Assembly: GCA_001942185.1 (NCBI GenBank)
Contig: MKJV01000063.1
Coordinates: forward strand, 1 to 64,000
Direction: 5' to 3'
From: Pseudonocardia sp. CNS-004
Lineage (GTDB): Bacteria; Actinomycetota; Actinomycetes; Mycobacteriales; Pseudonocardiaceae
DNA length: 64,000 nt
Shown here piece after piece: positions 6,366 to 40,258 of this stretch. The position numbers and the translations under genes are program-made. Within the stretch, counting starts at the first letter, position 1. The number at the start of each line of letters is the position of its first letter. The notes beneath the pieces were generated by a model, which saw only the letters and a program-made list of their open reading frames with translations, had not been told where the DNA came from and made no database searches.

Positions 6366-7939
6366 GTGCGGCTCTACGCCCTCGAGGACCGGACGATCGG
6401 CCGGATCCTCGCCGACAAGGCCCGGACGGTCGGGGACCGGACGTTCCTCACCTACCTCGACGAGCGCTGGACCTACGCAGACGTCCACGCCGTCACCAAC
6501 TCCTACGCCGAAGGCTTCCGGCAGGCCGGGATCAAGCGCGGCGATCACGTGGCGCTCATGCTGCCCAACCGCTCGGAGCTGCTGTGGGCGCTCTGGGGGC
6601 TGGGCAAGCTCGGGGCCGTCGCCGTGCCGATCAACACCGCGGCGAAGGGCGACCTGCTCGTCTACTTGCTCGACCAGTCCGACTCGGTGCTGCTCGTGGC
6701 CGAGGACGGCTACCGCGACCGCGTCGACCCGGCCGTGGCGCGGGTGGCGGGCGTCCGCGAGGTGTTCGGGCCGGACCGCCTCGCCGCGTTCGCCGCGCTC
6801 GCGTCGGCGGACCCGCCGGAGATGGCCGACGTCCGCTACGACGACCCGCACCTGATCATGTACACGTCGGGTACGACCGGGCCGTCGAAGGGCGTGGTGA
6901 GCCCGCACTCGCAGGGCCACGGCGTGGGGCTGCGGATGGCGTCGCTGTCGGGCTACGGCCCCGAGACGTGCTCTACACGTGCCTGCCGCTCTTCCACGGC
7001 AACGCGCTCTGGTACACGGTGTACGCCGCGCTGTGGGCGGACGCCGCGGTGGCGCTCTCGCCCGGGTTCTCCGCGCGCCGGTTCTGGGACGAGATCCGCG
7101 AGTCTGGGGCCACCGTCTTCAACGCGCTGGGCGCGATGGCGAACATCATCTGGCAGCAGCCGCCCTCGCCGCGGGACCGCGAGCACCGCGTGCGGACGGC
7201 GATGATGGTGCCGAACTCGCGCGAGCTCGCCGAGACCTGGCGGGAGCGCTACGGCATCGGCGTCACCTCGGTGTACGCGATGACCGAGAACACCGCCGTG
7301 ACGGTGTTCGGGCCGGACGACCCGCCGGAGAAGGCCTCGTCGGCCGGGCGCGTGCGCGACTACATGGACGTCCAGATCGTCGACGACGACCGGTGCCCGC
7401 TGCCGCCGGGCGAGGTCGGCGAGATCTGCATCCGCCCCAACGAGCGCGGCAGCATCATGCTCGGCTACTACGAGATGGCCGAGGCGACCGTCGCGGCCAC
7501 CCGCGACCTGTGGTTCCACACCGGCGACCGCGGCCACCTCGACGAGGACGGCTACCTCTTCTTCGCCGACCGCAAGAAGGAGGCCATCCGCCGCCGCGGC
7601 GAGAACATCTCGGCGTTCGAGGTGGAGACCGTGCTCTGCCGTCACCCCGACGTCGTCGAGGCCGCGGCCGTGCCGGTGCCGTCCGAGCTGGGCGAGGACG
7701 AGGTGATGGCCTACGTCGTCCCGGCGGCGGGTTCGCACGTCGACTACCCCGAGCTCGTCCGGTTCTGCGCCGAGCACATGGCGTACTACATGGTGCCCCG
7801 CTACCTGGAGGCCGTTCCCGAGCTGCCGAAGACGCCGAGCGAGAAGATCGAGAAGTACAAGCTCGCGGTGTCGGCCCGCGAGCGGCTCGGCGAGCTGTGG
7901 GACCGCGAGAAGGCCGGCGTCACGGTGCGGCGACCGTGA
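6366..7939 (+). pseudogene. Second acyl-CoA synthetase (AMP-binding), one frameshift
   Basis: A CaiC/FadD-like acyl-CoA ligase of about 524 aa. The N-terminal half (GTG start at 6366) carries the phosphate loop MYTSGTTGPSKGVVSPH; the C-terminal half in another frame carries YAMTENTAVT, the hinge FHTGDRGHLDEDGYLFF and the motif TPSEKIEKYKL. The frame changes at about 6955-6961, where restoring one G in the G/C run recovers GYGPRDVLYTCLPLFHGN exactly. The rest is perfectly conserved, so a sequencing or assembly error is as likely as a true null. In the operon it may activate a different acid from the first ligase. Its TGA overlaps the next GTG. Confidence 0.85.
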
Positions 7940-34835: not shown

Positions 34836-35714
34836 CGGTGCTCCCCCTGGTCGGGGACCAGCACGAGATCGAACGCCATACTGGTCCACGGGCCGTCGCG
34901 GTGGGAGCCGTCGGGGGCGGGACCGGGTTCGTGCCGGAGCGCGTCCATCACGAGGCTCTCCTTGACGCCGAACACGGCGTCGGAGTCGAGGTAGGGGTCC
35001 CCGGCCACGAAGATGTGGGTGATCAGGGTGCGGTGGCCCGGAGCGGTGACCTTGAAGTGCAGGTGCGCGGGCCGCATCGGGCCCCGACCCGCGGCTGTGA
35101 GCAGTTCGCCGACCGGTCCGTCGTGCGGGATCGGGTACGGCGCGGGCAGGACCGACCAGAAACAGTACTTGCCGCCGGTTCCCGAGCGGAGCCAGCCGCG
35201 GCCCGAGCTGCGGTCGGGTCCGTACTGGACGTCGTAGAAGCCGTCCTCGTCGGCCTCCCACACGTCCAGGCGGGCTCCGGCGAGCGGAGTGCCGTCGGTG
35301 GATCGCACGGTCCCGGACACGTAGCAGGGTGTCCCCGGTGCGCCGCGGGCGATGTCGCCGCCGAGGGGCACCTCCGGGGGCCGTCGACGAAGAAAGGGCC
35401 GAAGACCGTTGCCTCGGTCGCGCCGGGTGCGCCCGGCTCGTTGATCGCGACGGTCAGCATGGAAAGGCCGAGGACGTCGGACAGCAGGATGAACTCCTGC
35501 CGGCGCTCGTCGGTGATGTGCCCGGCGCGGGTGAGGAAGTCGATCGCGGCCTGCCACTCGTGCTCGCCGAGCCGGGCTCCGGCGAGTGCAGGTGCCGGAC
35601 GAGGCTCTGCATGACCTCGCGCAGCCGCGGATCGGTAGTGGCGTCGAAGCTGGCGACGACCTCGTCGGTCACGGCCCGCTCGCGGTCGGTCCCGGGGGGC
35701 GGTTGGGTGGTCAT
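34832..35714 (-). pseudogene. Hydroxyquinol 1,2-dioxygenase (intradiol), two frameshifts
   Basis: About 294 aa. Intradiol ring-cleaving non-haem iron enzyme converting hydroxyquinol (benzene-1,2,4-triol) to maleylacetate. The N-terminal dimerisation domain ([16 protein letters not shown], then [34 protein letters not shown]) precedes the catalytic domain with [39 protein letters not shown] and RPAHLHFKV: the two Tyr and two His ligands of Fe(III). The [11 protein letters not shown] wording favours hydroxyquinol over catechol cleavage. Frames change near 35575 and 35385; one-base corrections give [13 protein letters not shown]. Its ATG overlaps the stop of the maleylacetate reductase gene, whose enzyme uses its product. 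Confidence 0.85.
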
Positions 35715-36780
35715 GCGTGCTCCTTCGCGGGCTCGGTGCCGGCCCAAGCGGCGTGCAGCAGTGCGCACAGGCCGGCCCGGTCGACGGTGCGCGGGTTGTC
35801 GCCGGGCACCAGGGTGAGGATGTCGTCGAGCACGGTGTCGACGTCGGCCTCGCGCAGGCCCAACTCACGCAGACCGGCTGGCACGCCGAGCCTGCGGCCG
35901 AGGTCGTACAGGCTGTGTACCGCGTCGGGCCGGCCGAGGGCGCGGGCGGTCCGGGTGGCCGCGGCGGGGGCGTCCGGCGCGTGAAGGCGAGCACGTGCGG
36001 CAGCACGATCGCGTGGGTCTGGGCATGCGGCAGGTCGAAGGCGCCGCCGAGCACGTGGCAGATCTTGTGGTGCAGGCCAGACCCCGCGACGGCGAAGGCG
36101 GAGCCACCGAGGTAGGCACCGAGCAGCAGGTCGGCACGGGCGGACGGGTCGGCGGGGTCGGCCGCGACCGCGGGGATACCCGCGCCGAGGTGCCGGATCC
36201 CGTCCTCGGCCACTGCGGACGACACCGGGTTGCGACGCGGGGCCCAGAACGCCTCGACGCAGTGCGCCATCGCGTTGAGGCCGCTGGCCACCGAGATCCC
36301 GACCGGGAGCGTCGCAGTCAGGTCGGGGTCGTAGACGACGGTCCGCGGGAGCACGCGCGGGTCGGTGCCGGTCGTCTTTCGGCTCCCCTCGGTCAGGCCC
36401 CAGACCGGGGTGACCTCCGAGCCTGCATAGGTCGTCGGCACGGCGACGATCGGCAGACCCGTGGTGAGGGCGACCGCCTTGGCCGTGCCGGTCGTCGACC
36501 CACCGCCGATGCACAGCACCAGGTCGGCACCCGCCGCCTCCCGCCGGGCGGCCTCCGCCACCTCGACGGGGACGTGCGGGCGGATCCCGGAGAACCAGGA
36601 ACCGATCCGCTCGGCGAAGGGGCGGGTGATCTCGCGGGCCAGGTCGAGCTCCGGCTCCGCGGCGACGACCAGGACCCGGCGCGCGCCGAACACGTCGACC
36701 TCCCTGAGGAGCGCGGTGCGCGCGCCGCCTGCGCCGAAGACCACGCGGCCGGGCGGGGCGTCGTAAGTGAAGGTCGTCAT
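35711..36780 (-). pseudogene. Maleylacetate reductase (iron-containing ADH family), one frameshift
   Basis: About 356 aa. Reduces maleylacetate to 3-oxoadipate with NAD(P)H, the step after hydroxyquinol cleavage. Typical residues: [57 protein letters not shown], and the metal-region [20 protein letters not shown] plus [14 protein letters not shown]. Near 35975 the frame is lost; adding one base yields [20 protein letters not shown] and a natural C-terminus ending at 35711. It is coupled by ATGA overlaps to the SnoaL-like gene upstream and the dioxygenase downstream. Confidence 0.87.
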
Positions 36781-37202: not shown

Positions 37203-38054
37203 TCAGACGGCTCGGAGGTTGTTGCGGAGCCGCAGCGCGGTGAGCACCTGCGCCATGTCCTTCTCGCCCAGCCCCGCTTCAGCGGCCGCGTCGAGCAGGG
37301 CGTAGGCGGCCTCGGAGCCCGGGAGGCTCAGGCAGCGTCGGTGTGCCAGCTCGAGGGCGAGCCCGAGGTCCTTCCGGATCAGCGACACCGGTGCGGCGAC
37401 CCCGGCCGAGTCGGGCGACAGGAACGCCTCCTCCTTGTACCCGACGTACGGCGCGCCCGCCGCGCTGTTGCGCAGCACGTCGTAGAAGACCTTCGGGTCG
37501 AGCTCCCCCGCCTCGGCGACGAGCAGCCCCTCAGCGACGCCCTGGCTCAGCGCGGCGAGCACGGCGTTGACGGCGAGCTTGGCCGCGGACCCGGAGCCGA
37601 CCGGGCCGGTGTGGAACTGGGCCGAGGTCATCGCGGCGAGGACGGGCCGCACCCACTCGAACTGCTCCGCCGTGCCCCCGACCATGGTGGTGATGGCTGC
37701 GCTCTCGGCCATCCCGACGCTGCCGGAGACCGGGGCATCGACGACGCCCACCCCTGCTGCGCTGGCGAGCGCCCGCACGAGTTCCGGCCCGGCCGTCCCC
37801 ATGACGATGTGAAGGTGGTCCGAACCGGCGCCGACGAGATCGTCGAGGACGAGCCGCCTGGTGGTGGCGCCGTCTGGCAGCATGCTGATGGTCAGTGGCG
37901 CCGCCGCCAGCTCGGCGGCCGCACCGACGGCGGTGGCCTCGTCCGGCGCGGCCCCGACCGCGGGATCGTGCGCGAGAACGGTGTGACCCGCCCGCGCCAG
38001 GTTCCGGGCCATCGGACGGCCCATCCGCCCGAGACCGGCAAATCCGATCAGCAC
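37203..38054 (-). CDS. NAD(P)-dependent beta-hydroxyacid dehydrogenase (3-hydroxyisobutyrate dehydrogenase family)
   Basis: A 283-aa enzyme with the family signature IGFAGLGRMGRPMARNLARAG at its Rossmann start, the substrate-binding segment DAPVSGSVGMAESA, and the catalytic Lys in GSGSAAKLAVNAVL. Members oxidise 3-hydroxyisobutyrate, tartronate semialdehyde or gamma-hydroxybutyrate. Within this operon its substrate is unclear. The ATG at 38054 follows AGGAGGAA. It sits 57 bp after the chimeric SDR/alcohol dehydrogenase relic. Confidence 0.86.
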   Translation of the reverse strand: MLIGFAGLGRMGRPMARNLARAGHTVLAHDPAVGAAPDEATAVGAAAELAAAPLTISMLPDGATTRRLVLDDLVGAGSDHLHIVMGTAGPELVRALASAAGVGVVDAPVSGSVGMAESAAITTMVGGTAEQFEWVRPVLAAMTSAQFHTGPVGSGSAAKLAVNAVLAALSQGVAEGLLVAEAGELDPKVFYDVLRNSAAGAPYVGYKEEAFLSPDSAGVAAPVSLIRKDLGLALELAHRRCLSLPGSEAAYALLDAAAEAGLGEKDMAQVLTALRLRNNLRAV

Positions 38055-38111
38055 GTGTTCCTCCTGTGAAGTGCTGTGAGGTGTGGTGAGGTGCTGTACG
38101 AGCGCAGCCGG

Positions 38112-38574
38112 TCAGGTGCGGACGAGGATCTTCTGGACGTCGGTGCCCGGCCGCACGAGCCGCTCGAAACCGAGCTGCACGACGTCGGCGGCGTCGATGA
38201 CGTCGCTGACGACCTTCTCGCTCGGCAGCTGCCCGGTCGCCAGCAGCGCGATGATCCGCGGCCAGTCCTGCACGGGGTAACACCATGTTCCGGTGAGGGT
38301 GATGTCGCGGTTGGACAGGTCCATGGCGTCGATGACGGCCGGGCGGACGTGCAGGCCCACCTGGGCCACGGTGCCGCGGCTGCGCACCGAGGCGAGCGTG
38401 GCCGCGAGACCGGCCTCGGACCCGGAGCACTCGGCCGGACGTCTGCACCGATACCCCCGGTGAGCTCGCGAACGGCCTCGGGGACGTCGGTGGCGGTGGG
38501 GTCCAGGGTGACGGCCACGCCCAGCTCGTCGATCAGCTTGCGCCTGCCGACGTCGGGCTCGGAGACGATCACCC
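38112..38574 (-). pseudogene. Zinc alcohol dehydrogenase, C-terminal fragment
   Basis: From 38574 one frame reads ARVIVSEPDVGRRKLIDELG, the second Rossmann strand of a medium-chain dehydrogenase, and continues to TGGIGADV. After a one-base shift near 38410 the rest follows (ECSGSEAGLAATLASVRSRG, DITLTGTWCYPVQDWPRI), to a stop at 38112. The catalytic-domain N-terminus with the zinc ligands is absent. It is joined directly to the N-terminus of an SDR, so an internal deletion or an assembly join removed the intervening sequence. Confidence 0.75.
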
Positions 38575-38885
38575 GGGCCGTTGTTGACCAGGACGTCCAC
38601 CCGGCCGTAGGCCCGCACCGTCTCCGCGGCCGCCCGCCGGACCGGCTCCGAGCTGGTGACCTCGAGGCCGACTCCGAAGCTCTCGACGCCGTACTTCTCG
38701 CGCAGGGCCGTGCTCGTCGCGTCGGCGCCGGCTTCGTTCAGGTCGCCGACGACGACTGCGGAGCAGTCGCGGGCGAGCCGGGCGCTGATCGCCGCACCGA
38801 TCCCCTGCGCCCCGCCGGTGACGAAGGCGACCCGCCCGGGGCGGGAGTCAGGTCGGCTCGTCGTGGTCTCGCTGTCGTTGGTCAT
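38575..38885 (-). pseudogene. SDR family oxidoreductase, N-terminal fragment
   Basis: A normal SDR start: RVAFVTGGAQGIGAAISARLA (TGxxxGxG) through RAYGRVDVLVNN, where the next residues should be AG. Instead the sequence passes into the middle of an alcohol dehydrogenase at 38575. The catalytic Ser and YxxxK half is missing, so it cannot be active. Its start (ATG 38885 or 38891) overlaps the end of the XRE-cupin gene by about 40 bp. Confidence 0.75.
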
Positions 38886-39660
38886 GATCACTCCGCATCG
38901 TCGCGCGTCGGGGAGAGGGGTCCCGGTGGCCCGGACTGAGCAGGTCGAGCACCTCCACGGCGTTCGAGGGGCGCTCGGGCGAGGAGCCGAGGACGTCGCC
39001 GAGGAGCGAGGCCACCCGTTCCCGCGTGTGGTCGAGCTCGTGGCGACCGGCGACGAACCACAGCCCGCGGGCCGGGACGTCGCCCTGGTTGACGTACATG
39101 TGGGGGCGGGTGGAGTCGAAGCAGAGCGAGTCGCCCGCGGTCATCAGGTGCCGGTCGAAGTCGAGCAGGAGCGTCAGCTCCCCGGCGAGGAGGTAGGCGT
39201 ACTCGACGCCGCTGTGGCGCATCAGCTTCCGGTCGACCGAGCTCGCGGCCCCCGGCTCGTAGGTGACGAGCAGCGCGTCCACCTCGGAACGGCCACCGAC
39301 CGCGAGCTTCTCCCAGCGGACGCCGTTGGCCATCTCGAGAACCGGGTTGTCCGCCGCGCGCTGCACTACGTCCGACGACGGCCCGGCGAGCGGGCGGGCG
39401 GCCACGGCGCCGGCGGGCGGCGGGATCACCGCCGCCTGCTGCCCGGCGCGCCCGGTGATGCCCAAGAGCTCGTCGAGGGAGATGCCGATGTGGTTCACCA
39501 GCGCGTACAGGGTGCTCACCGACGGCTGCGACTTGCCGGTCTCGACCTGCGACAGCAGGCTCGCGGAGATCCCGGCGGCCGACGCCACGCTCCGCAGGCT
39601 CAGCTTCCGTTCCAGTCGCGCCCGCCGCAACGCGGGTCCGATCTCGTCCTGCACCACCAC
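38848..39660 (-). CDS. XRE-family regulator with cupin domain
   Basis: About 270 aa. Residues 7-60 form a Cro/C1-type helix-turn-helix (ALRRARLERKLSLRSVASAA, GISASLLSQVETGKSQPSVS, TLYALVNHIGISLDELLG). A C-terminal cupin follows (SGVEYAYLLAGELTLLLDFD and HMYVNQGDVPARGLWF). Such proteins regulate catabolic operons in response to small acids. Of the possible starts, a GTG near 39660 is favoured; the ATG at 39693 adds MACAGWGRTGA. The last 20 or so residues are Arg/Asp rich and overlap the SDR fragment, so the true end may be earlier. As first gene of the operon it is the likely regulator of the hydroxyquinol genes. Confidence 0.82.
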   Translation of the reverse strand: MVVQDEIGPALRRARLERKLSLRSVASAAGISASLLSQVETGKSQPSVSTLYALVNHIGISLDELLGITGRAGQQAAVIPPPAGAVAARPLAGPSSDVVQRAADNPVLEMANGVRWEKLAVGGRSEVDALLVTYEPGAASSVDRKLMRHSGVEYAYLLAGELTLLLDFDRHLMTAGDSLCFDSTRPHMYVNQGDVPARGLWFVAGRHELDHTRERVASLLGDVLGSSPERPSNAVEVLDLLSPGHRDPSPRRATMRSDHDQRQRDHDEPT

Positions 39661-39871
39661 TGCCCCTGTTCGTCCCCAGCCGGCACAGGCCATGCGCCGC
39701 TGTTCGTTCGCTCTGGCTGAACACTACCGGCCACAGCGGCCGAGGCGTCAACCAGGGATGCGCCGAAATGTAGTGACACTTGACAGACACAGTCCGGTTG
39801 GGGAGTCTCCACCACGATCTGTCCGCTGTAGCTGAACGATCGCGGCCAGACCGCCCAAGGAGGTCGGAGAC

Positions 39872-40009
39872 GTGCTCCCAGCCAGCCATCAGCCCGAGGT
39901 CCGCGGTTTCGCCACCGGCGCGGTCGCGCTGGTGACGGGGGCCGCAGGCGGGATCGGCTCGGCCACCGTTCGCGCGTACGCCGCGGCCGGGCTCGATCTG
40001 GCGATCCCG
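39872..40009 (+). pseudogene. SDR family oxidoreductase, N-terminal fragment
   Basis: An ATG-less but well-formed start (MLPASHQPEVRGFATG if GTG at 39872 is used) followed by AVALVTGAAGGIGSATVRAY and AAAGLDLAI. This is the first beta-alpha-beta unit of a classical SDR. It stops at about 40009, where the sequence becomes the inverted start of another gene. AGGAGGTCGGAGA lies just before the start, so it was once translated. Confidence 0.6.
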
Positions 40010-40122
40010 TCCACCGCCGCGGTCCCGAGCCACAGCTGTGATTCCTCGGCCAGGACATCGAGGGTGTCGGCTTTGCGCCGGGCGCTGTCGCGGCCCTCGC
40101 CGTTCACGGCTGCACCGGTCAT
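40010..40122 (-). pseudogene. PPOX (pyridoxamine-phosphate-oxidase-like) family protein, N-terminal fragment
   Basis: The ATG at 40122 opens MTGAAVNGEGRDSARRKADT followed by LDVLAEESQLWLGTAAVDG, which resembles the first strand of PPOX-type split-barrel proteins (RxADTLxxLxxExxxWLATAxADGxPHLVPL). It ends where the SDR fragment begins at about 40009. Both fragments face each other and both lack everything beyond the join. Confidence 0.45.
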
Positions 40123-40258
40123 CGGGCGCACCCCGCGATGGTGATCAGGTAGTACCCCACGGTGTCTCCGTTCCGTGCCGGCCCGCCGGTCGGGCCTCTC
40201 ACCACCGATGACGAACGGCGCACGCACAGACCCGACATACCGGCGCCTGAGTGGTCAC

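Follow-up and report, generated by a model that had tools for sequence, protein, structure and literature searches.

The open reading frame (ORF) at 38112-38891 on the minus strand of the window, the 64,000-nucleotide stretch of Pseudonocardia sp. CNS-004 contig MKJV01000063.1 analysed here, appears from its sequence to be a non-functional join of two gene remnants, the N-terminal part of an SDR and the latter half of a zinc-dependent alcohol dehydrogenase (ADH). Neither SDR nor ADH activity is expected of it, because it lacks the catalytic half of the SDR and the zinc domain of the ADH, parts that members of the two families need. The join may have arisen when a deletion beside a hydroxyquinol-type catabolic cluster removed some 1.08 kb or more, in which the 3' half of the SDR gene, anything that lay between and the 5' half of the ADH gene would have been lost. 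We consider it slightly likelier that the sequenced DNA really carries this deletion than that the assembly is at fault (probability about 0.55). The finding is either a broken-gene scar of an ordinary kind or a fault of the assembly, and in neither case a new enzyme. The parts of the ORF are the following.

38112-38891, minus strand: joined ORF of 259 aa, open throughout from the start codon to the ADH stop
38577-38891, minus strand: SDR N-terminal remnant, about 105 codons, stopping at LVNN of the nucleotide-binding half
38572-38580, minus strand: SDR/ADH join, with at most about 2 nt common to the join and the flanks inferred from relatives, as judged by eye from the window and the relatives
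38442-38578, minus strand: first part of the ADH remnant (ARVIVSEP...GGIGADV), out of frame with the SDR
38435-38445, minus strand: second frame change, one base, net -1, inside the ADH remnant
38112-38435, minus strand: second part of the ADH remnant (ECSGSEAG...KILVRT, then the stop), back in the SDR frame

The SDR part, which ends in RVDVLVNN, abuts ARVIVSEPDVGRRKL at about 38577. Pfam places PF00106 at residues 21-106 of the ORF (profile positions 2-86 of 195, E 4.7e-15), and the translation carries TGGAQGIG, the glycine-rich nucleotide-binding motif of an SDR N-terminus. In classical SDRs the catalytic half contributes a Ser and a Tyr-x-x-x-Lys motif; PF00106 positions 87-195 find no Pfam match in the ORF, where ADH sequence stands instead. 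The NAD-binding domain of the ADH, PF00107 (129 positions), is present in part only, as two pieces in two frames: profile positions 19-61 in a shifted frame (ORF 38048-38572; E 3.5e-4, 20.9 bits, below the Pfam cut-off of 31.8) and positions 64-128 in the SDR frame (E 8.3e-9, above the cut-off). The GroES-like zinc domain PF08240, present in the intact ADH of genome G266, was not found in the ORFs of the window at E 0.001. An earlier note had described an SDR N-terminus joined to the second half of a zinc ADH, and the ORF, the two Pfam domains and the ADH identities given below bear this out beyond chance. Its description as an out-of-frame chimera holds at the join, but the ORF has two frame changes, and the one-base shift near 38435-38445 is additional to that account.

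Could this be a real SDR-ADH fusion, expressed as one protein, in which both frame changes are base errors? The 259 codons are open from the start codon to the ADH stop, and frame breaks are common in the assembly. Yet an open frame of this length is weak evidence of anything in high-G+C DNA, because such DNA leaves few chance stops. The SDR match breaks off at profile position 86 of 195, that of the ADH starts only at position 19 of the 129 in its NAD domain, and PF08240 is absent; no fusion was seen when each half was searched against 390 family genomes, a weak argument with 12 candidates scored per genome and an SDR search that missed the G266 SDR. An expressed fusion is thus very improbable, and a working fusion enzyme was rejected, as both catalytic parts are missing.

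What has been lost can be gauged from intact relatives. At the thresholds used, the ADH part is matched in one of the 61 other genus genomes (G016), in five genomes when the 389 others of the family are searched (G016 among them, with 12 candidates scored per genome), and also in two named Rhodococcus-type genomes. The two ADH pieces are 76% and 64% identical to an intact same-genus ADH and both 72% identical to that of G266; more broadly, the first part is 61-76% identical to the intact ADHs of loci L029, L035, L036 and L051-L054, and the second 64-72% identical to those of L029, L035, L036 and L051. In Rhodococcoides trifolii (L035) and Rhodococcus sp. AW25M09 (L036) the ADH is directly followed by HIBADH, as in the window, and an SDR stands directly before it, all three genes being intact; measured between the NNAG codons of the SDR and the VIVSEP codons of the ADH, the gap is about 1.14 kb. 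The SDR at these loci looks like a member of another subfamily, and the window SDR part has no match at its position; unlike in the window, dioxygenase, maleylacetate reductase and SnoaL genes are without match in the 16.3-kb loci.

G266 presents a different spacing. Its intact SDR, 52% identical to the window SDR part over 86 residues, adjoins a regulator related to the XRE-cupin regulator of the window (63% identity), but lies 6.4 kb from the ADH, join point to join point, the interval holding what look by eye like an epimerase gene and genes for sugar transport. On G266 coordinates the lost halves alone measure 492 nt and 591 nt, about 1.08 kb together; this is only a minimum for the loss, because G266 has the 6.4 kb between its SDR and ADH, and more may be gone. 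The 1.0-1.2 kb proposed earlier as missing therefore agrees with the R. trifolii and AW25M09 loci and disagrees with G266, and with such a relative at hand a 'precise' removal is not borne out. In the comparison with orthologous operons, the ADH is intact in relatives, and an SDR stands directly before it in only two of 11 neighbourhoods. Eight of these 11 were passed through a motif filter, which showed no SDR immediately upstream of the ADH, and no SDR-ADH pair precedes the HIBADH-SnoaL pair in the two other same-genus genomes that have it (G016 and G022). The window SDR and ADH may nevertheless once have been direct neighbours in the lineage of Pseudonocardia sp. CNS-004.

The genes around the join are listed here.

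38848-39693, minus strand: XRE-cupin regulator, intact, directly upstream, with HTH_3 and Cupin_2 (Pfam)
37203-38054, minus strand: HIBADH-like dehydrogenase, intact, directly downstream, with PF03446 and PF14833
34838-37187, minus strand: rest of the cluster, namely a SnoaL-like protein, maleylacetate reductase and intradiol dioxygenase
39872 or 39908 to 40006, plus strand: truncated SDR, matching PF00106 profile positions 2-35 only, below the cut-off
34842-34700, minus strand: truncated epimerase-like N-terminus with a frame break inside

The 3' end of the regulator overlaps the SDR start. Within the cluster the SnoaL-like protein gene is intact; the maleylacetate reductase has one frame break near 35983, and the intradiol dioxygenase has two, near 35571 and 35380 (all minus strand). 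Homologues of the dioxygenase, the maleylacetate reductase and the NTF2-like protein are found on R. opacus pRop44186_a (L037), at 49%, 52% and 57% identity, and by this homology the cluster has both the dioxygenase and the reductase of a hydroxyquinol-type pathway. The substrate hydroxyquinol is putative, and the dioxygenase ORF, cut by its frame breaks, scores far below every NCBIfam cut-off. On pRop44186_a a cupin regulator, SDRs, intradiol dioxygenase, maleylacetate reductase and an NTF2/SnoaL-like protein likewise occur together; unlike in the window, a zinc ADH and HIBADH do not appear among the genes listed there, in a table that is incomplete. The placement of the join beside a hydroxyquinol-type cluster, as first described, is upheld, and the intact relatives support a deletion join there.

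Of interest are the two further truncated genes, both within 4 kb of the join. The SDR fragment at 39908-40006 is 70% identical over 33 residues to a full G266 gene (L094 12427-13341), which is divergent from a related regulator, as the fragment is here. After the epimerase-like N-terminus at 34842-34700 comes a stretch of about 0.75 kb in which no coding sequence is clear. An ORF fragment at about 40010-40140, facing the truncated SDR, was considered as a pyridoxamine-oxidase-type N-terminus and dropped; Pfam and NCBIfam were empty, and plasmids gave one chance-level match.

Is the missing kilobase placed elsewhere in the assembly? With the intact G266 ADH as query, the two window pieces come up at 62% and 70% identity; the other matches are paralogues of lower similarity. 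Elsewhere, the missing ADH N-terminal half is matched at no more than 48% identity with all 148 candidates scored (at most 45%, except for one piece over residues 6-147 at 48%). For the missing SDR C-terminal half, the matches listed are at most 45% identical, and the G266 SDR as query matches 149 places, the best at 43% over its full length, in both cases with 150 of 270 candidates scored. Since only less similar ADH and SDR paralogues were found among the candidates scored (150 of 270 for the SDR), this idea was rejected. Nor does the same join appear in a second genome among the matches listed, whether in a DNA search of 60 genomes including its own, with the ADH part in 62 genus, 390 family and 397 order genomes (overlapping sets that include its own genome, 11-12 candidates per genome being scored for family and order), with the SDR part in 62 genus and 390 family genomes including its own (up to 78 and 12 candidates scored, respectively), or in other genomes' contigs (2 loci) and plasmids.

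The alternative to be weighed most carefully is an assembly artefact: the SDR and ADH genes would be whole in the organism, and at least 1 kb would have been lost by the assembler or in the consensus step, perhaps through low coverage, a chimeric read or a strain mixture. We hold this to be a substantial possibility, short of even odds. The assembly is poor, with 156 contigs and 83% completeness, and is rich in indel errors, essential genes included. Its rpoB appears as four matches in different frames, none above the family cut-off, whereas in four of four relatives rpoB lies in one frame and above the cut-off, which is passed in 10 of 14 control genomes. On the 109.6-kb contig C75, 110 non-overlapping G022 ORFs were tried, of which 19 had no match, 5 fell below the identity/score filter and 86 were kept; 32 of these 86 genes are split, and the 85.9 kb of coding DNA that aligned contains 43 frame breaks (34 of 97 ORFs and 45 breaks in 91.5 kb when some overlapping ORFs are included). 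Among the split conserved genes are ones that, from their size and order, we take to be tuf, fusA, rpoC and rplL. Control counts against G022, with overlaps kept and one gene per control having an unmatched end of more than 40 residues, gave no breaks in 3 G016 genes (9.2 kb) or in 10 G266 genes (14.3 kb). A codon-frame model, its codon frequencies trained on the same control stretches, counted, over 204 kb of the CNS-004 genome, 41 same-strand frame changes that it left unexplained, versus 2 in 167 kb of relatives; it left out the changes at the join, where the middle piece of 116 nt is under the 120-nt minimum.

Nucleotide alignment to G022 shows 58 one-base deletions and 22 one-base insertions, some of them real species differences outside genes and many, by eye, in short homopolymers. 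The shift near 38435-38445 has the size and sign of the commonest of these classes. Because the assembly is so indel-ridden, this shift can most likely be put down to an error in the consensus and calls for no biological explanation. The genes of the cluster are broken too, with 4 shifts in about 4.8 kb against about 2.4 expected at 5.0 per 10 kb, which is not clearly above background. Gene-fragmenting indel errors are known in long-read assemblies, according to one published account (PMC12007338), and the CNS-004 assembly was probably made from long reads. The errors treated there are mostly deletions, are tied to homopolymers and split conserved genes over frames, as here; they cover the shift near 38440 but not a loss of at least 1 kb.

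The large gap, indeed, is not of the assembly's usual one-base kind. The genome-wide excess of frame breaks, essential genes included, is what assembly error would give, but large losses inside conserved genes are absent from all 86 genes assessed on C75, 24 of the 110 reference genes having no usable match. One candidate, a 326-aa gene that had seemed half missing (143-326 aligned, E 1e-10), was rejected when it aligned over 2-326 on recount. The join, moreover, seems to share too little with the inferred flanks to provide a repeat for collapse, and a repeat-driven collapse was rejected, no long shared word being seen at the join by eye; as noted, no other contig was found to carry the missing halves (for the SDR, with 150 of 270 candidates scored). 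A low-power truncation test of accessory stretches against 375 proteins from relatives gave 29 places in the CNS-004 genome (17 at least 75% covered, 10 less than 60%) and 19 in controls (5 and 10, respectively); its two own-genome partial matches at 65-70% identity are those already known at the locus.

The slight lean to a real deletion rests on the absence of large losses in the 86 genes together with the two more truncated genes within 4 kb of the join. The same observations have another side. Zero in 86 remains compatible with about one large assembly loss in every 30 kb, and C75, a conserved region, may be better covered than the join locus. The two nearby truncated genes can be read as a locus that is losing genes or as a badly assembled stretch, and three truncations so close together could mean that the assembly is locally bad. 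The poor assembly, the lack of a second genome with the join and the rarity of an SDR directly before the ADH also count against a real deletion.

If real, the deletion would be an ordinary gene-loss scar beside a catabolic cluster. We infer that its two ends were probably joined illegitimately, sharing little or no sequence, and that it would be recent, since codon structure in the remnants and their identity to relatives are both still normal. It then resembles a deletion-formed pseudogene, in which two truncated genes lie head to tail with their inner halves lost and the coding pattern of the remnants kept; the halves missing here are intact in relatives. It differs in lying in an error-rich assembly, with one base error probably inside the remnant. 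Might the cluster be losing its dehydrogenase genes in this lineage through one genuine deletion after another? Three scars within 5.3 kb would then be the SDR-ADH join, the SDR fragment at 39908-40006 and the cut-down epimerase-like gene at 34842-34700, with the regulator, HIBADH and SnoaL genes kept, but this we regard as unlikely.

Apparent fusions, frameshifts and broken genes of the CNS-004 assembly are not safely taken as biology without reads, and the other 'split' or 'broken' genes of the window are likewise to be doubted. Further frame breaks lie at positions 6965, 25325, 29803, 46551, 50492, 50894, 54285, 59497 and 62704 of the window, and also in locus L091 (G000 C75:52001-72000).
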